From Agelas oroides (taxonomy: Eukaryota; Porifera; Demospongiae; Agelasida; Agelasidae), in NCBI GenBank assembly GCA_949130485.1, contig OX422198.1, positions 2,359,262 through 2,423,261 of the forward strand: a stretch of DNA of 64,000 nt, read 5' to 3'. Shown here piece after piece: positions 1-16,200 of the stretch; within the stretch, counting starts at the first letter, position 1; each line of letters starts with the position of its first letter. The position numbers and the translations under genes are program-made. The notes beneath the pieces are model-generated. The model did not search any database and was not told the DNA's origin. It worked only from the letters and a program-made list of their open reading frames with translations.

Positions 1-1264
1 AGTACCTCGACTGTCACCTGTACCAATGGCCACTCAAAGGATGCTGGAGTGAGATGTCAAGGTTAGTACAATTTTATAGAGTTGAATTACTGAAGGGGAA
101 TAATCACTGCTGTGAGAGCATGCTACTACCTTACATACACTTGGTAACATTTTGTTTGAATGAAGGTGTAGCAATTAGAGTGTAGCATTAACTATGTCAA
201 ATGTTCTGAACACGAATATGTTCACCTGCTTGATGTATTGTTTAGTGTCTTGCTAACTACACCATTCAGCTGTAGTTACATCACACACAGAGCTGCTATG
301 TATTTTAGCTCTTTAGTTTAACAACCATTCCAAACTGCAATATTTGCTATATTCTCTAAATAGTAATTGCAACAGGCAACTGTACATATGGTGATGTTCG
401 TCTGGTGGATGGCTCCAACCAGTATGAGGGGAGAGTGGAAGTGTGCATCAATGACCAGTGGGGGGCTGTGTGTGATGACTCCTGGGACAACACTGATGCT
501 ACTATAGTCTGCAAGCAGCTGGGATATGCATACACTGGAAGTAAGTCTATGCTTAACAGTCTTTAGATTGTTCTGATATTTAAGGCAAATTGCTCTGTGA
601 ATCACAGCTGGAAGGGCATACAGCAGTGCCAACTTTGGTAATGGTAGTGGACCAATCTTCCTGGATGATGTCCAGTGTACCTTAAGTTCTAGCCGGCTTC
701 TAGAGTGTCCCAGCAGTCCAATCCTGTCACACAACTGCCTCCACTCTGCTGATGCTGGTGTGGGTTGTGAAGGTACAACATCACTTTTTTTTGTTGGGGG
801 GTGGGGGGTGAAAGACATGACAGAATTATCAAACGTGAGTACAAACAATGCGAATTTTTACATACAGCTCCTTGCACTCATGGCCAGTTGCGACTGGTGG
901 GTAGTAACACTGCTTATGAAGGCAGAGTGGAAATCTGCTTGAATAATATTTGGGGAACTGTGTGTGATAACTCCTGGGAAGATACTGATGCTACTGTGGT
1001 GTGTCAACAGCTAGGTTATCTTACTCAAGGTTAGCAAAGATGACTAGACAAGAATTCTAGCCTAGTGTTAGTCCAAATTAGCACATTGTATTGTTTCTAC
1101 AGGTGCAAAAGCCTTCAGCAATGCTTATTTTGGTGCTGGAGTTGGTCCAATCCACCTTGAAAGTGTTAATTGCCATGGTAATGAGGCTAGTATCAATGAG
1201 TGCCCACGTAGTCCCACCGTCACCTGCGATGGCCACTCACAAGATGTTGGAGTGAGATGTCAAG
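1..1264 (+). other. SRCR domain block of the adhesion GPCR
   Basis: Exon 1 (1-61) is the last part of one SRCR domain, ending in the family hallmark VRCQ. Exons 2-3 (376-540, 608-772) and exons 4-5 (868-1029, 1103-1264) each encode one complete SRCR domain of about 109 residues. Each opens with VRLVDG or LRLVGS plus a GRVEVC/GRVEIC strand, then WGAVCDDSW or WGTVCDNSW, then VCKQLGY or VCQQLGY, and closes with GVGCEG or GVRCQ. Both domains are split at the same place by a phase-1 intron and bounded by phase-1 introns, which allows duplication by exon shuffling. More SRCR repeats probably lie upstream. Confidence 0.95.
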
Positions 1265-4200
1265 GTATGATATCACATTTCCCAACTGTACTGAGAAAAA
1301 ATCACATGGGTAATTTTGCTCACTGGAACAACGACAAAGAAAGCTGTAACTCATCTGCATGTGCACTTGGTATAGTAGAGGGGTGTGTCTGGAGAATGCG
1401 TAACCAAGCTCACCAACTCTTCCCCAATTTGTTTCCAAATGTAAAATGCTGAATCCTGTGCACAAGAGTGGTAGTTGAACCTTTGAGTAGTTATATCTAT
1501 TGTGCTACATAATGGAGGATGCATCATCCAAGAGAACGATGTAACTATGAGTAATTAAACATTATCAACTAAAATGTCCAGAGACTTAACCTCTATAATG
1601 TCCTGGGTGGCTTGATGCTCTTACACTCTCATCATTACAAGTAGTCTTCATAGAAATTTTTATGATAGTGGTGGTATGCAAATAGTTAGTAGTGTGAGCA
1701 AATAACTAGTCCTGAATCTGGATCCAGCATTGCTGCACTCCAGAATGAACTATTCTTAGCTACTGTTTGTTGGTGATGTTACCAAACCCTTTAGCATTTG
1801 ATGGCTGTCCCTATGGTAATGACCCTCGATGGAACATCACTTGGGCAAATACAGCACGAAATACAATTGACACACAGCATTGTCCAGGAGGAGTGAAAAC
1901 CAGAGGTAATGAAGTAAAAGAGCCTAACTGTCATCATACCTAATGGTAAAAGTCATGGACATTTGAATGTCATAACTACAGGCAACGCAACTCGACTCTG
2001 CATGAGTGATGGGAACTGGGCAGATCCAGATGTTTTAGAATGTGAATCTGAGCAATTTCTTCAACTTCTTTCACAGGTATACCAGCAAGTGCCATTTTTC
2101 AGATTGGTATACATAGCTATTTTTTCAATGTTTGTATGTACCCTTAGTACAAAACAGCAGAATTTTTTCCTATCCAGCTGAAGTTGCTTTTATGAGACAT
2201 TTTGGCACTGACAGTCATGTTGTGGTAAACAATCTTGCAGGCAGAAGATATAGTTTCTGGGAACAGAACCACTGCTGAGATCTTGGAAGAGAGTGCTTCA
2301 CTCACTACCCAACTGGTGGCTGCTACAGAAACCAGTGGCATATCCCTCCTGCCAACTGAGTTGAATGCCACCAACACCATCCTGTCAAAAGTGATACACG
2401 TACTGGAGGATAGTGTATCTACAGGTTCTGCACCTCCCAATGAGGTACGAAGTAAGATGTACACACATATTGATTCACTGAAAATGATAAACTGTATCCT
2501 ATCCTTTGTCCCTGCAGGCCATAGTTGATGTGCTCAGTAATACACTAGAAGAAACTAATCTAAATGGATGGAGTGATCTGCAAGTGGCAAGTTTTAATTA
2601 GACAATCACTGTACAAGTACAATGAGAGTTCATTGCTACACTTTACTGCAACCATAGATACTATAAACGGACTTGGATGGGAAACATTGCAATTTTCCGC
2701 GGGTGCAGCCGTTTTATGGGCGGGGCCACGTACATCGACATCCTCTCATGCGAGAGCGCGTAGCAACGCATAGCAATGTGCAGCTGCAGCGCCGTTGGAT
2801 GCCGAGATCATCGGAGATGTCTGGACGTGATTCTGCGCGGGAGATACTAGTGTCTGTTTCCAAAATGGAAGAGTTCCGCGTGAGAACTGCCAGGACAGAC
2901 CAAGTTTTAAAGAACATTGAGGCACTCAAAAGAGCCGTAGATGCTGCAGCAACTCATCTCCACCGCCTGTTTGCACTACTGGAAACTCAGGCTAGTTTAC
3001 TTGAAGCACAGATTGCCAGATTTAGACATAACGGATTATTACCATAGTCTAGACAGCTTGCACCACAGATAGCTACGACCGTTTATACATGTATTTACTA
3101 TTTATGCTTGCACGCTTATAGTATCTCTGTTTACACATTTCTGTAGGTCACAGATGTTGTGAAGTCTGTGAGAAAGTACCAGTCCGCAGTGATCAGGAAT
3201 GAGAAGTGCAGGGCAAAGCTCCTTAAGTTCCGAACATGTGTGCTGCCTAAAATTTTGAAGAAATATGAAGGCGTGCTTCCAGGAACTGATGATTTTATAT
3301 TGTGGCAGTGTGTACTTGACCAGATCTTCATGAAAACCTTCTTCAATGAAGGTGAAGGTCAGCCAGCGCCAATAATGCCGGAAGCTCGACAACTTACCAC
3401 AGTAGAGGAAAATGCTGTAAGGTACACAGCTGGGTTTGTAGTCCACAAGCTCTTAGGAATTTACCAAAAGAAAAAAACATCCACAGCAAGTGATTATGTT
3501 GACTGCCTCAATAGCATGACATCTAGCTCTGACAACTATGAAGGACAAGACAGCATGAAGTGGACACAGAAAACAAACAGAGGAGGACTCTGCTTAGTCA
3601 GCGACATCGCTTACTCATGCAGTCTTCCAAGAAGTTGAAATTATAACTTATCCCATGATTGAAGAAGCTTTCCAATACAGGAGGAATGTTCCAGTTGAGG
3701 ACATCAAGAGGGCAGCTGTAGAGGATCCAGACATCCAGTTTTTCTGGACCATTATTGCCGTACATATACCAGATGACTCAGCGCAAGCGTTACTCAAAGA
3801 GTTGGTAGAAGAGTGGATCACCCTTCGAGTGCATTCCTTTGGGAGGAGATTTATGGAAACCTATAAGACTACAACAAAGTCTGGAACTAAAAGAAAAAGA
3901 AGTCTGAGAAAAGAACTTCAGAAAAAGAAAAAATTGTCAGAAAATGAAAGTGTTGGTTAGTCTCATATACCCAGACTGAGTTACATTATTATGACTGCAT
4001 ATATGATGCCACACTCTGTGATAGCATAATTATGTCATGCTGCTATAGCACTGCTACAGTATATTGCTTATGCCTTAGCCTCGTTCCCAGGCCTGGGAAC
4101 AAGGCTAATACAGGCTGAGCTTTAGCTATAGATGCAGTCCATTACATTCGCAGGCTCTTCTCTGGAGCTTTTTTATCCACCATGCTGTTTACATGGTACG

Positions 4201-7200
4201 TTGCTATGGAGTAGAGGAAAACTATAATATTATAGCTGCTGAATATTGCTAAAGTGAATGTAGTCTGGGAATGAGGACAATACTGTAGTGAGACTGAGAC
4301 TTTGTATGGTTGTGTGTGTTGTAAGATTATTCATTGTGCATTGTTACGTCATTGGAATGTACTATATAAATGTATGTTCATGCATTTCTCAGTCAGTCTG
4401 AAAAGTCTGTAAGTCTGTCTGTCGAACTTATATTGAGAGTATTTCAGCCAGCCACGAACTAGACAGTAAATACTGTTACAAATACAGATAATAATAATTA
4501 CAAATTCAAGGCACGTAATGCTCTCCTCTTTGGCAAAGGTTGACTTAACTCTGCTACATTGTGTTCCAGTTTCCTCTTCTGGATGTTACTGCAGTGGCCA
4601 AAAGCCAAGGACTTCCCAACTCGAATAGCCTGTACATTGTCTAGGAACTGTTTAGCCGAAGGGTTGTCACTCCTTCCTCCCCTTGCTCTCTGTTTACCAA
4701 AGTAAATTTCTAGTGGGTCTTGATTGAAACGCTCACTCAATAGAAACTTGGGTCCAGACATTGATAGGAGGCGAGGTACAAGTTCAGTAAATGAGTATAC
4801 TGGAGAAAAATAAGACATTAATTTTGCTTAAACACAATAATCATGACATACTTTAAGAATAGTGACATACCTGTCATTCGCAATCCATCCCGGGTTTCTT
4901 TTGATAACATCATGGTGTTCTTAGCTACTGCTGAAACATCTTTTCTTGATTTCACTGAGGCCTCCCATTCTTTAAGATATCCAATGAAGTCATTCTGCAA
5001 CCACTGTTGTAAGTATGAAGACAAAATTAATTATTACATTGCCTCCATACTTCTATGCATATGCTCATTGCACAATAAAAGCAGCAGCACTAGCAAACCT
5101 TTAGCCTGGAGTCATCAGGACTCCTGTACGGCTGAAGGTCTGGTTTCCTTTTCTGCCCAGCTTCCTGAAGGCATCTTGTGTTCATACAATCAAAGAATTT
5201 ATCAAAAATTCTGCAAAACTTTTCAGTCTCCATGGTGTCATTAAGGAGGGATGATGGAGTTGAATCAAGTTCTCTGCACACAGCAAACGCATCTGCAACA
5301 GATTTGCTAAGCACCTGTACCAAATAACACAGCAAACATAGTAATACTTAAACTATAAGCACACTAGTCCAGCTAATATAGCTATCCCAAACTTCTACCC
5401 ACTTAGGATCGCTTGCAGTATCTGGCAGGTATAGGTGGGTAGGAGTTGGGGATAGCTAGCTAGACTATACACACACTATGTAAGACACACGCACATCTAA
5501 ACCGTAGTTGCAGACAATGTTTTGGTGTACGTACCTGAACAGCCAGCCGCACATTCATGCGTGAATAGGAGTTCAGATGTAGATGTTCATGCGTTAGTCT
5601 GTTGCCAATGTATAAACCACTGTGGGTAGAACACTTCTCATGCAGTTTGTGAAGATGGTGCCACAGGATATGACGACCATTGATCTGCATGAATAGAGAG
5701 AGTTAAACCTATTCTATTTATAGCCCACCACATTCATGACTAACCGTGAGGTATCTGCTTCCTTGCGAATGTGAATTAGCCCAACAGTTTCTAGTCGTTT
5801 TCATTAGGTGTGGCACATCGGTCATGAAGTAGATAAATTTGGTAGGATCATACATGTTACGAACCTTGTACACTACACCATCACGCACACCCTCCTCAGA
5901 AATGTGGTCATGAATGAACTTTCGATTGGGTTTACCACCGTCACATACAATGCAATCAACCTGAAGAGCAATCTCTTGTAGACGTCGAACAGCACCCCAA
6001 ACGATGTCGTGCAACTGTAACCCTGTTAGATCTGTTATGGAATAGCATGACACCATGCATATCATAGGGTCACTGTTATAACATACATGTAACTTGGAAA
6101 ATATTATACTCACTTCTAGTAGGAAACTGAGCAAACTCGTAGTCAAGCTTTATGAAGATCCCACGAACCATCAAGGCAAGCATATGATCAGCAGGCTCTT
6201 CTTGATGTTCCTCCAGGCAACTCCTCTCCAAATTCCGTAAATTGTTGTCCATATCTCCAGTATCCACAAATCCAATGATATCACCATCTCTAGTAAACAC
6301 CAGATCCTCCCTAATCTTCATTTCATCAAAGGCCAAGACCATATGCCTAAGTTGCAAATGGCAATAAACTAAGTGCACATTAAACAGATTTTATGCTACC
6401 CTGACCTTTTCCATTCTGGGAGATCATCCACCTTTGCCTGTTCTATAAGGGCACTCATGACCTCTGACTGAAAGCCAGGTTTCATCTTCATCCAGTTAGT
6501 ATAATCTCGGAGGGTTCGCTTTGAAGGCAGGGAGACAAATCCAGAGTCACGGATAACATTGTAGGTCCGTGGGGATGACAGCATTATATTCAAGCACCAC
6601 CGTATGAAGAGTGGGTGCCATCTGATTCCCTTGCTGCTCTTTGCTTTAGAAGTTGCAATCTATAATGACATAATTAGCTCATACTTAAAGTATAGCACGC
6701 ATATGAAAAGCAAATACAGTCATGCCCCTACAAGTGTCAAATACCTGCTGTTCCCAGAATATCCTCTTAAAATTATCCCGTGGTAGCTTCTCAATATCTT
6801 GCTGGGCATGATGTAGTACATTCTCTAGGTCATTTTGTAGGCTAGCATCAGCAACCACACCATGTTCAGCAGTCAGAGAGCGAAGTTTCTGCTGCAATCG
6901 CTGAAGTTGTCTCTGCTTGTTTCTCAATGCTTGTCGAACTAACTTTAGGTGCCGAATTTTCTGGGGGCTGTCCATGTAGCGCAAATTTCCAGCTTTTGAG
7001 GGTGTCTTCTTCTTTGAAAAGTTCGCGTACATTGACCGAAGATTATTTCGGTATGATAAGCATTCCTGGCATCGGGTACCAGTAACTAGCAGCTCACAGC
7101 CAACATGACGCACAGTCTTTGAATACGTACTCCCAGCATAGGTAACGCTGCACTTTGTATCAAGGTAAGCCGCTGTTTCTCCCTTGGTTGTCAGTAGCTT

Positions 7201-10200
7201 TCCCTTCTTGTTCTCACACATCTCCACAAACTTCTGGTCTGGGTTGCCAGGGCACACGTGCAGTGTATCAAGAAGGGTAACTAATCTCTTGAAGCTCTCC
7301 ACATTCAAAAGACTCTGAAATTCCTGTAGTACAGGGCACTGCTCCTGCTCCACACGATGACCATGTATGTAGACCGTCCAAGTGAGATCGGAAGAGACTA
7401 TTAAACACCTGGTAACAACAACTGGTTCGGATGCAGTGAATTCTTGACGTGATAAACGGATTTGTTCAAGACAGTCAGGAGTGTTATCATACCATTCATC
7501 ACCCAAGTGAACAGACGTAATGCATTCATGGAGGTCATTCTAGAACAAATAAGAATAAACGACTAGTTAACCGTATGTAACATCCCACCATAGCTCTTCA
7601 AAATATGTTGGATTCCTGAGACATTCAAAGCAGCTAGCTATGGCTATGCATGTAGCTATAGACACTATTATTAGCAGAACACTTACTAGTGTTACTTTTC
7701 TGCGAGGTTCCCCTCTCCGCTTCTTTTTGACACCAATTCGGGCCTTGCTGCGTGCACCATGCCCTGACTTCTTCCTTTTCCCTGGCATTACTGAATAAGA
7801 TTCCAATTAAACAGCATCAAAATATTACAGAGCAATCCTTGTACTAAGCATGGATGCTAACAACAACAAAATTTATCTCTTCATGATTTAGTAAATGTGC
7901 CCGCAAACTAGGGTATCACATCATGCTACTGATAACGATAAATCTGAGTAAAATACACATTAAAACCCATTGGTTTGCTTGCATTGCATATATTATTGTA
8001 CACTATCACAATGCACAGGTAGCAATAAGCTCCATAAACCTCAGACACAACTAGTATCGAAGTGTATGTGTCCACAAATTTACAACAACCGATACCAAGA
8101 CGGGATATATGTGAACAGTTGCCTTGCTTTCCCGCCTCTATCATTTTTGTCAGCCATTGAGACTCTCAATTAGTTTAGCGCTCAAAACCTACCCAAGTGA
8201 TACATAGCTCTAGCCATACCAACGTAAGAAAAGTGTTAGAACGTACCTTCCCTCCACCGCCTCTCCTGCTCAGCTGTCACTCTGCCGCGTAAAGCGCGTG
8301 GTACCATCACGTGAGAATTTTATATGGGACTAACATACGTAATTTGCAATGTTTCCCATCCATGTCCGTTTATAGTATCTATGCTGCAACAACACTACGA
8401 CTGTCTACTGTTTTTGCCATATAGTTGGTGCACAAGATATTGATAGGTGTGCCATCATTGCAATCAGTGTAGATGTTCATTGCTTCCTTCGACTTAAATT
8501 AACTTAGTTTACATTGTGTGTGTTCTTATTCTTGGATTTTCAGAGTATAAGATTATTTGACTCTTTTTTTCCCCTGCATTTTTGGAGTGGAAATATTCAA
8601 TTAATGACTTTAACTGGTTGGTCAAGCACACATAATCAGCTGGAGTAGTTTATTTGTATTGCAAGTATGCTTCTTACCATTTCTGTGTACTACTTCCATT
8701 AATCTTGCTCTACAACACCATGCATGCAGGTATCACCAGGTAGTCAGGTACTGTTGGACAATGCAGAACGCTATGGACTCTATCTTGCTAGGTCACTAAA
8801 TGACACCAACCCAGCTCAACTGCTGTCAAGAAAGAACATTGGTATGGTATATTGAGAAAGTTTAAACAGTAGGCACTTGTATGATGGATTATTTTTCACA
8901 TTTCCACTTTACTATGCAGTCATTAGTGCAAAACAGTTCGGTGACACCAACATGGATGTTTCATCTCTGGAAAATGAAGTATTCCCAACTGAGACAAATT
9001 TAATTAACTTCACTCAGCAAGTCAGACCTGCACAAATCAGCATCCCACCACAGGTTCTAATGTCAAGGAATGGCTCAGATGGTGAGGCAGAGCCATAACA
9101 GTGTTATAGTGCATGTAATGCAGGTATCAACTGTAGCTGTAGAGATAACTCACAGCAATAACAAGACTTCCCAAAAGTTGGACACCTTAAAAGCTCCACA
9201 AGAAAATCAGTACTTTTACAGACATACAGTTGTGGTAGGAGAATGCATGGTGGTGAGACTAGATTGAGCCATTTACAGAATCTGTAATAAATATGTTGGA
9301 CAGACACAGGGATGATGAGGACTGATAGAATTTAGATGTAAATTGTCAGTAATATGAGTCTTTGTCACATTAGTGTATGGAAAATACGTATGTGCTTGAG
9401 TACTTAGTGAGAACCATAATACATGCTAACTCATGCTTCACTTGTAGGGAGTGTACCAATTGCACATGTTCTTTTCCAAAACTTGGATGATTTCTTACCT
9501 ACTGCTGTGGATGGACTAAAGTAAGTGCCAACTGAACTCAGAACTCTCTTATGATTGCTACAGTGATATTTTATAATCAGAAACATGCAGTAAATGGTTT
9601 AAAATCATTGTTTCTTCCCTAGCAATAGCCATGTTGTGTCAGCCGTGTTATCATCTCAAGTGGGCAGTCATGGGACACCAACTACAGACACTCTTGAGCT
9701 GAATCCCATCTCCTTAACATTCAATTTTAAATCCGTACGCTGATACATGTACATATATTTAGGTACACTGTACCTGCATCATAGTTGACCAGTTGCAGTT
9801 GAATGCTGTTCATATATTACTCAGGGGAATGAAGCAAGCAAATTCAAGTGTGCATACTGGAATTTCTCTGAACCGTAAGTTGTGATGACTATAAATATCT
9901 ATGCTGTTAGAGTTGAGTTGAACTGAGCTGAGAATTCTGTCTTGTTTTTTGCAGTGTTGGTTCTGGTAGCTGGGTCACAGATGGAATTACAACCACTAGT
10001 AACTTGACAGTTGGGAATGTTACATCAGTGCAGTGCCAAAGCACCCATCTCACCAGCTTTGCAGTGCTAGTGGATGTGGCAGGAGGACTAGAGGTCTGTA
10101 GTTGGAGTCACAACATATGACAGAAACTTTCTGTGGCTGTTTCTGCATTCATGTGGTGAATTTTTCTTGGTAGGATATACCAGAAGTGGAACGCAGGGCC

Positions 10201-13200: not shown

Positions 13201-16200
13201 TACACGAAGTTTCTTACCCGTCAGATATGCATAGCGCTTGAGGCTGTGCTTTTCAAACTCCATGCGAAGCTCACTCCAGGATTGGCGCTCATTCATAAAC
13301 TTTGACCCTATACAGGAAATTGGGCCAAATGTAGGGGTTGGCCACTCTTTCACGAGACTACGGTACTTGAGAATCATAATGTTGCCCAAAATATTGCAAA
13401 ATAACAAAATCATTCAGCAAGTGCCTGAGGCAGCTAAAAGTATATCTGCAAGCAAATTCTTGCGGGCAGTGATACAAGGTACACATGGATAAAGTCAAGG
13501 TAAACACCAAGCTTTTAGAAATTTTGGTGCATGTAAACATAGCTATCTCCTAAACCACATGCAGTTACATGCCAAGTACATTGTAGACGTGTCCCTGCAC
13601 ATTAATGGTTGTTCATTTTTGTCTGTCGGCTAATTTCATATTCATACATATGCATTTGATACAAGACCCAATATCTGGAAATTGCTTACATGTGCTCAGA
13701 TCAATGTGGTTTTCCTGTGCTTTGCTGTGAGAAGCCTCTGGAAGAGCAAGCGACTTCAGTCAAGTACTAGGAAGTTGAACAAGAAAGCTAAGATCATAAA
13801 TTTGGCCAAGTGAGTAGTTGTGGATACTGTAATGTAAGCACTGCCACCATGCACAGAGCAACATTTATACTTAGTAGTAAAAATCGACCTAGCAGACTAT
13901 AGCTAAGGCCAGCATACACAGCACCATACATGGAACAACAGCTCTATTTTGGTTCTAGTCACTGTTCTATCTACATGGACACAAACAATTCATTCCCTCT
14001 TGTCAACAGGTCTACCTTGAAGGCCACTGTCATCCTCCTTCCTGTGCTGGGACTGACCTGGGTATTTGGGGTCCTGACCATGGACCACAACACCACTGTT
14101 TTTGCATGGCTGTTCACCATCTTCAACTCCATCCAGGTTTGAGTACAATGTTATAAAACACTATACACTGCAAAAGCAAAATCATATGTTTGAAGTTACT
14201 CTGTAGCTCTCACACAGAGGGAGGTTTTATACACCAATCATTCTAGTTCAGCAAGTGTAGGGCATGCAATGCAGGCTGGTATCATGTCAGAATAACAGAC
14301 ACATTAATCTACAGTGTTGCTTTCCTGCTTTGTTGCTTATTTAGCAATAAGATGTATCACTGGCAAAAATCTACCATAGCCATCCCTAACTAGGCTAGTT
14401 AGGTAAGAAGACTGCTACAACACTAAGTAGCACAAGTGCTAGTGGTATCTATATCTGTGATGATGTAACAATTCAGTAAAGGTAAACTAGTCTTCCTTGT
14501 ATAAGCCAATAGTGGCTTTAGCAATGACATTGTCGGCATATGCTGCATAAAAATATCTCTCCATTACAGGGTGCTGTGATCTTGTTCTTTCATGTGATAA
14601 GAAATGAGAAGGTGTGGAGTAAACTTGGTCCCTGGTTCACTACCATTCCTCAAAAAGCACTCAGCTCTACTATTAGGCCTGATACAGTAAGTTGCTTGCA
14701 TAAGTGGTTGTATGCTCTGCATACAAGTGATTGAGTTGACATGTGTGTAGGAGCCATCATGTCTGTCTGTATGATCAGACATACATTCCAGATCCTCCTA
14801 CATGGTCAATATAGTCTATTTTCACGGAGTGAGTCATTATCCTTTGTATGTCATGAATAGTTGGATGCTCACGCATAGAGAGGAAGTTGCTTCAAGACTT
14901 GGCAATACTTATTAGCAAAGGTTTATGGTATCTAGCACTCCAAAACATACTCAAGCATTGTTCTCTGTGTGTGCTAGAAGTGATAATATGACCATGTGCA
15001 CAAAATCAAACTTTTCATTTCACCATTGATCATCAACAAGGTTCATAGATCAATCATGTGACAGTAACAATTTCTGTAACATCACCAAACATGTTGAAGC
15101 CCCTATCATATCCTGGAATGTACTCATCCTTGGCAATATACTGGTCCCAATGTTTGTATAGTTGTTGAGCATCGACAAATTACTTTAACTTCTTGGACTT
15201 CAGTTATACTGCGAAGAAACATGCATGATAGCAGATTTACTTTGGAACTAATGATCAATTGTGGACCGGAGGAGGAACGGCTGAAAATGTGAAAACTAGA
15301 AATTTGTGATGATTTTAATTTGGCAATGTTGTCCCAGATTGACAAATTAAACCCTTTCCAAAATTTCCCACCATGTGCTACATATGTAGTAAGTCATGGG
15401 GGAGGCTGCTGTGACATCCAGTCAGAACACACACTGCAGAGACCAGTTCTTTATACCAATAGGGAAGCTGTACCACTTAAACCACAAGACAGTCAGTTTA
15501 TTAATTTTTTATGCACGCTAACACTAGCAGAAAACTATACACATTGCTATACTAGTACTTGTAAAGGAAAGACAAACCTGCACCGCAGACCTTTGCGGCT
15601 TCCTCACTTTCCACAGAGGGCAAATGAAGCAGTAAGCGTACTCTTGAGGATGTGAACACAACTTATGTTGCTGCCACTGCGTGTTATTATGTTTTCTGCT
15701 GCAGTATAGTTGTTCTTCTAGTGCGGGGTTTCATACTAATATTTTTGAGCATGCAACTTTCCACTTTGTACACTTCAATCACCTTCGCATTTGCTTGCAC
15801 ACAACTGTTCCAGCAGAGTATATATAGTAATGCAAGATGATTATGTCGAAATTATGTCATAAGTGTAGGGACAAAAGTACCTTTTCTGGTGATTTCGCCA
15901 AATTTAGTGCTTGCCAAATTTTCTTGCTATACAGTATTCCTTACTTATATTTCCAGGTACAGTCTAAGTTAGTGGAAACTTCAGTCAATGGGTGCCAGGA
16001 AATGGAGGTTGCTAGCTAATCTTTTATGGTGTATATGGCTTTTCAAAATGGTAGTTGACAACACACACTTCATCAATGTAACTCAGTGTACAACAAACTA
16101 AGTGACTGCCAGGTGTATTACTGAGGCATTCAGTACCACCTGTGCAGTACACATAGAGAATTGTAAGGATTGTGAGGGCTGGTGGTTGTCTGGTTGTCGT

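Follow-up and report, generated by a model that had tools for sequence, protein, structure and literature searches.

A P-superfamily transposon in the sponge Agelas oroides with a convergent second gene that may supply the C-terminal domain of its transposase

The demosponge Agelas oroides carries a DNA transposon of the P type within a 64,000-nucleotide stretch of its genome assembly (GCA_949130485.1, contig OX422198.1, positions 2,359,262 to 2,423,261 of the forward strand), and this whole stretch is called the window throughout. The element spans window positions 2653-8383 and is flanked by an exact 7-bp target-site duplication (TSD), CTGCAAC, found at 2646-2652 on the left and identically at 8384-8390 on the right. 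Its termini are 40-bp terminal inverted repeats (TIRs), the left at 2653-2692 on the plus strand, beginning CATAGATA, and the right at 8344-8383 on the minus strand; they agree at 39 of 40 positions, and near-identical left ends number at least 15 in the assembly. Two convergently transcribed genes lie between the termini, a transposase on the minus strand (gene 1) and a further gene on the plus strand (gene 2), and it is the relationship between these two that concerns us here. An initial annotation of the locus had described a P-like element with termini differing by a single base, an exact duplication, a transposase without lesions and a second gene in convergent orientation; all of this stands, the P-like identity by virtue of the Pfam core domains, the structural match and the catalytic acids described next.

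Gene 1 comprises nine exons separated by eight GT-AG introns and encodes 823 amino acids followed by a stop codon, with no lesion. Taken in order of transcription along the minus strand, exon 1 (7687-7788) and, further on, exon 8 (4871-5003) are placed as GT-AG spliced open frames, a spliced frame being common to the rest. Exon 2 (6745-7539), supported by Pfam and alignment, encodes an N-terminal part with conserved cysteines in which THAP was not detected; exon 3 (6406-6659) aligns with P residues from 133 onwards in the match to the Protein Data Bank (PDB) and covers a helix-turn-helix (HTH) region and the start of RNase H. Exons 4 (6114-6346) and 5 (5745-6031) continue RNase H and, by alignment with P, hold the catalytic residues D391 and D492 respectively; exons 6 (5535-5684) and 7 (5099-5314) correspond in Pfam to the GTP-binding insertion domain, while exon 9 (4498-4799), identified by Pfam and the P alignment, contains the C-terminal part of RNase H, the catalytic E754 and the stop codon.

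Three Pfam families of the P superfamily (PF21787, PF21788 and PF21789) match this protein above cut-off, with E-values of 1.8e-22 for GBD, 3.7e-22 for RNaseH_N and 4.7e-8 for RNaseH_C. The closest solved structure in PDB is the Drosophila P transposase, 6p5a_A (E 2.2e-22), and residues D391, D492 and E754 align with the three P catalytic acids, which we take to be D230, D303 and E531. Alignment also shows six conserved residues among the eight that contact GTP in P, according to the part of PMC7776569 drawn on here, GTP-dependent cleavage itself being predicted at most. On these comparisons the catalytic core is assigned to the P superfamily, for which reason we rejected a new superfamily. 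Two features of the canonical proteins are absent. At E<=10, Pfam returns no THAP domain for the full-length window transposase, where canonical P and THAP9 proteins have one at the N-terminus, and the polypeptide terminates only 48 amino acids past the RNaseH_C match, with no P-like C-terminal domain (CTD) there, so that a CTD does not share a polypeptide with the catalytic core. The last-exon open reading frames (ORFs) of five relatives introduced below (L053-L056 and L059) also stop soon after, although splicing beyond these ORFs is possible. An alignment of six transposases (A2) has invariant T170, R172, C176, C185, C188, R192 and L195, in the ORF numbering of L054, and the cysteine region at residues 170-195 is a candidate zinc-binding motif replacing THAP.

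The main exon of gene 2 lies at 3147-3960 and encodes a CTD-like protein; the window copy has a frameshift near 3616-3619 when set against the family's three other coding copies, two of which (L009 and L014) retain an open frame of 269 codons. A possible first exon at 2817-3047 is an ORF with unsettled boundaries and no confident in-phase donor. When a profile of 15 hand-trimmed gene-2 proteins (A1), from which near-copies had been left out, was compared with 177,635 PDB sequences, one match was returned at E<=10, and this was 6p5a_B, the CTD chain of Drosophila P (E 0.079); the E-value is weak, yet the sole match is the P protein itself. HHalign, using 6p5a_B as a single-sequence template, aligned 133 of its 133 residues collinearly with A1 (score 26.8, E 4.5e-5), a score that none of 500 shuffles equalled (maximum 11.4) and to which the reversed sequence did not come close (3.6). 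Tnp_P_element_C was the sole Pfam family to match more than one gene-2 member (4 of 15, best E 0.017), and the thirteen other families that match one member each are taken for chance. The part that matches the CTD is the second half of the protein, which ends in a conserved basic stretch; the N-terminal part, of about 140 amino acids, has no recognised match. A distant relationship between gene 2 and the P CTD is thereby statistically supported, as far as sequence comparison can establish it. Were gene 2 instead of unrelated origin and acquired by the elements, its similarity to the P CTD would be chance, a view to which a PDB E-value of only 0.079, an HHalign probability of 41% and weak Pfam matches lend something; we consider it very improbable, given that a chain of the P transposase is the one match from all 177,635 sequences and that the alignment is collinear, full-length and above every shuffle.

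Homologues of gene 2 recur throughout the genome. Searching with the open L009 protein produced 79 matches at E<=10 and 55 at E<=1e-3, the latter representing 51 loci, a count that includes near-copies separately and hence not only independent cases. The genome contains 48 PF21787 matches; 26 of the 51 gene-2 loci have one no more than 15 kb away, and in 20 of those 26 the nearest is convergent. Flanks of 1.5 kb were analysed for 25 loci (L028-L052), after exclusion of five of the 30 loci returned that belong to the window's own family. Transposase sequence lies within this distance of gene 2 in convergent orientation at 19 loci, on the same strand at two and not at all at four. An inward-facing CATAGA[TC] precedes gene 2 in 17 of the 25 loci, followed by GGATTG in 15 of the 17 (34 bases shown), compared with 3 of 25 on the opposite strand and 16% in shuffles.

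Four further elements from three families (L053 and L054 from one, L055, L056) were examined in full, and each combines the two genes with CATAGATA ends and a 7-bp duplication, with 9-bp candidate duplications as well in L054 and L056. Compared with the window family, their transposases are 31-50% and their gene-2 proteins 27-32% identical over the aligned pieces, and the gene-2 homologues are open frames of 290-383 codons beside these diverged transposases. Gene-2 and transposase distances are correlated across 15 loci (r 0.84, 94 pairs) and remain so without near-copies (r 0.72, 69 pairs, 13 loci), no permutation among 2000 reaching as high a value in either case; neither the pairing of loci nor this correlation demonstrates constraint on gene 2 within a family. 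Across many diverged families of this genome gene 2 recurs as a partner gene, and its capture by a single copy was rejected on the strength of the genome-wide homologues, the four elements and the 19 convergent loci. Scarcely any likelihood is left to the idea that this is an ordinary P-like element with a single gene, its second ORF being meaningless: one transposase gene is indeed what P elements have in the literature passages drawn on here, but the open frames accompanying diverged transposases and the convergent transposases at 19 of 25 loci already contradict it.

Two loci depart from the convergent arrangement. At L057 both genes stand on one strand, and two GT-AG introns of 69 and 73 bp would, if spliced, bring the last transposase exon, a short linker and gene 2 into one open frame, the remainder of the gene lying outside the model. 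L037 has the same order, with a frame that seems broken. This is the order of domains in the ordinary P protein and supports the joint working of both proteins. A tree built from 19 gene-2 proteins gives good support to only 5 of its 16 inner branches and leaves both same-strand loci unplaced. P-type cuts have a 17-nt stagger. Adjoining gene 2 of L057, at L057:5361-5399 (equivalent to L049:2432-2470), a 25-bp sequence, CATAGATGTCACTCTACTATCTATG, stands between two exact copies of GTACAAA; it reads as some 17-19 bases from one terminus joined to 6-8 from the opposite one, which resembles expectation for such a cut. It is the one site of its kind in the overlapping loci and window (278 kb together), against none in 20 rounds of shuffling, and is suggestive only of an excision footprint or the minimal remnant of a related element.

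In the 259-Mb assembly (141 contigs), the left 148 bp of the window element matches at least 15 places and the right 184 bp at least 14. The family has at least 15 copies, namely four with coding sequence, which are the window copy, L010 (5524 bp), L014 (8599 bp) and L009 (family sequence for the first 2548 bp only), and 11 deletion derivatives of 852-865 bp (about 0.86 kb) that share a common deletion junction. The 7-bp TSD is exact in all 14 copies having both ends, the fifteenth, L009, being without a right end; together with the 7-bp duplications of the four further elements this accords with the 7-8 bp of the P superfamily. T occupies position 2 of the TSD in 14 of 14 copies and A position 6 in 13 of 14. 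The three full copies are mutually 99.3-99.4% identical, inserts left out, and the derivatives have a mean pairwise identity of 99.1% (98.6-100%), each lying 2-6 substitutions from their own consensus (n=11). Such identity among both classes of copy supports recent movement of the element, as the initial annotation had proposed from the window alone; rather than a lone copy, or diverged termini elsewhere, the assembly holds 14 other copies whose termini are nearly identical. Its description of the element as complete applies to the termini and transposase of the window copy but not to gene 2, which is frameshifted, and a solo long terminal repeat (LTR) is nested inside the element. Its view of the second convergent gene as unusual holds insofar as that gene is present, and fails in that the gene is a recurrent partner across many diverged families with a second half that matches the P CTD.

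The transposase frame is open in the window copy, L010 and L014 and truncated in L009. Gene 2 has an internal stop in L010; L014 keeps an open main exon, but a 3-kb insert splits the presumed first exon. Counting the window frameshift, and provided that the first exon is as drawn, no coding copy among the four retains an intact pair of genes. The L014 insert (element positions ~211-3284) has inverted ends of its own, CAGTCGTTTCGCCAGCG, and runs of A on either side, by which it is recognised as another DNA transposon nested in the P-like element. The solo LTR of the window copy (4284-4480) lies between the two genes, is 197 bp long with TG...CA ends, is flanked by the 5-bp duplication AATAC at 4279-4283 and 4481-4485, and has its end 17 bases past the stop codon of the transposase; it is missing from the three other coding copies. 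Relatives of this LTR occur as pairs about 4.1 kb apart (C7, C2, C9, C10 and C13, for example) with 90-99% identity to it, which indicates that part of this retroelement family is young.

MuDR of maize belongs to another superfamily. It has two convergently transcribed genes, as here, of which one is the transposase and the other, mudrB, is given as of unknown function in the part of PMC3440606 drawn on here. Unlike this system, gene 2 of the sponge element resembles a transposase domain. The MuDR precedent, and the damage to gene 2 in all three copies with an open transposase, would suit an accessory regulator, either a dominant-negative repressor derived from the CTD or a MudrB-like protein, beside an 823-residue transposase that works alone. 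We think this unlikely, although less so than chance similarity: P and zebrafish THAP9, on the evidence of the passages concerned, include a CTD that is missing from this transposase, and gene 2 supplies a related domain; the two genes are co-inherited across families; and at L057 gene 2 is spliceable to the last transposase exon in the ordinary P order.

Comparison with characterised elements places the sponge family close to, and yet apart from, Drosophila P and zebrafish THAP9 (Pdre2). It shares with them an RNase H domain with a GTP-binding insertion and the same three catalytic acids, and with P and Pdre2 termini starting in CAT (in Pdre2 CATACCTGTCAAC), internally deleted copies and a related CTD. 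In the descriptions drawn on here, P and Pdre2 have an 8-bp TSD, whereas that of the sponge element is 7 bp, and P and THAP9 combine THAP and CTD in one protein, whereas here THAP is undetected and the CTD-like domain belongs to a separate convergent gene. Galileo, a P-superfamily element of Drosophila, has a TSD of mostly 7 bp with the consensus GTATTAC/GTANTAC, according to the part of PMC4168063 drawn on, and the T at position 2 and A at position 6 resemble GTANTAC; the 7-bp TSD was accordingly rejected as a novelty. Galileo is further described as having unusually long TIRs and a transposase with a THAP domain (PMC3688188, in part), unlike the TIRs of about 40 bp and the window transposase, in which THAP was not found.

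Beyond this genome, the profile searches brought out one relative. Against viral contigs the gene-2 profile gave 12 pattern matches and the transposase profile 93, with no relatives in either set, and against genome contigs the transposase profile gave 35 pattern matches, of which one, L059, is a relative; in the gene-2 profile every stretch proved too poorly conserved for a comparison with genome contigs. L059 is a 4-kb contig (JACERO010000093.1) filed in a metagenome-assembled genome (MAG) of Nitrosopumilus; it has an animal-type P transposase spread over several frames, as if split by introns, and an ORF resembling a retroelement integrase downstream. Archaea of the Nitrosopumilus type are linked to sponges, and L059 is probably host contamination of the archaeal MAG. 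No description of a two-gene P element or a separate P CTD was found among open-access titles and the openings of abstracts, a scope outside which Repbase and most subscription papers lie, and an earlier catalogue entry for such an element may exist.

Taking these results together, we assign a probability of roughly 0.7 to the reading that the window holds a recently mobile, cut-and-paste copy of the P superfamily, from a lineage in which the transposase is split between two convergent genes and the CTD is provided in trans. Gene 1 would provide the HTH, the RNase H catalytic core and the GTP-binding insertion, ending soon after the catalytic domain, and gene 2 a separate protein consisting of its N-terminal part and a domain equivalent to the Drosophila P CTD. 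Both proteins would assemble at the CATAGATA-ended termini, cut there and insert with a 7-bp target stagger, and proteins supplied in trans would move the 11 short derivatives, as well as those copies whose gene 2 is broken. We infer from sequence that the two proteins interact by binding, that transposition depends on gene 2 and that both are expressed. In the strand-transfer complex of P, the CTD is packed in between domains of two different subunits, RNase H of the first and the GTP-binding domain of the second, and contacts both transposon and target DNA (PMC7776569, in the part drawn on); it thus works between subunits, on a flexible linker, in Drosophila, and would here be an independent gene. 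To the fuller proposition we give even odds: that this is an anciently split, two-subunit P transposase whose CTD is now an independent gene facing the catalytic gene, that transposition requires both, that overlapping transcripts could limit transposition, and that the arrangement, without THAP and without a fused CTD outside one or two same-strand families, extends to many families in one genome.

Several observations weigh against the split transposase. The 6p5a_B match is weak, its E-value being 0.079 for the whole sequence and 3.5 for the best single stretch; the HHalign probability is low, and the match is carried mostly by two motifs, Y-AGY and GGL, together with a collinear remainder. 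Tnp_P_element_C is below the Pfam cut-off where bits are shown (L057: 15.6 against 22.6), and three families matching one member have lower E-values (Sdh5 3.3e-4, Zmiz1_N 0.0042, type III needle regulator 0.0052). No PF21787 match occurs within 15 kb of 25 of the 51 gene-2 loci, 6 of the other 26 are not convergent, and the four loci of 25 with no transposase within 1.5 kb point the same way. Gene-2 dN/dS is 0.52-0.88, with no sign of strong short-range constraint, in a sample of only four pairs above 60% DNA identity, two of which are near-copies (98-99.7%). Gene 2 has lesions in the window copy and L010 and an interruption of its presumed first exon in L014, and the apparent failure of any coding copy to keep both genes whole fits trans-complementation but also a dispensable gene 2. 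Lastly, L059, the only relative outside this genome, does not show gene 2 but has a retroelement downstream of its transposase.

As to the insertion site, three of the ten ORFs given to the domain search of the host region matched at E<=0.1, SRCR domains occurring in ORFs that precede the element and 7tm_2 (secretin family) in one that follows (window 601-1449 and 13903-14139). From these ORF domains alone, the site is probably an intron of an adhesion-GPCR-like gene, the context originally suggested for it.

If gene 2 is the missing CTD, the sponge element would be a natural two-component P transposase, in which omission of the CTD would test which steps, among target capture, end pairing and strand transfer, require it. 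It would also mean that a domain attached to a transposase by a disordered linker can become a gene of its own that is retained alongside its partner, and P-like elements of other animals with a truncated-looking C-terminus or an unexplained second ORF would then deserve re-examination.

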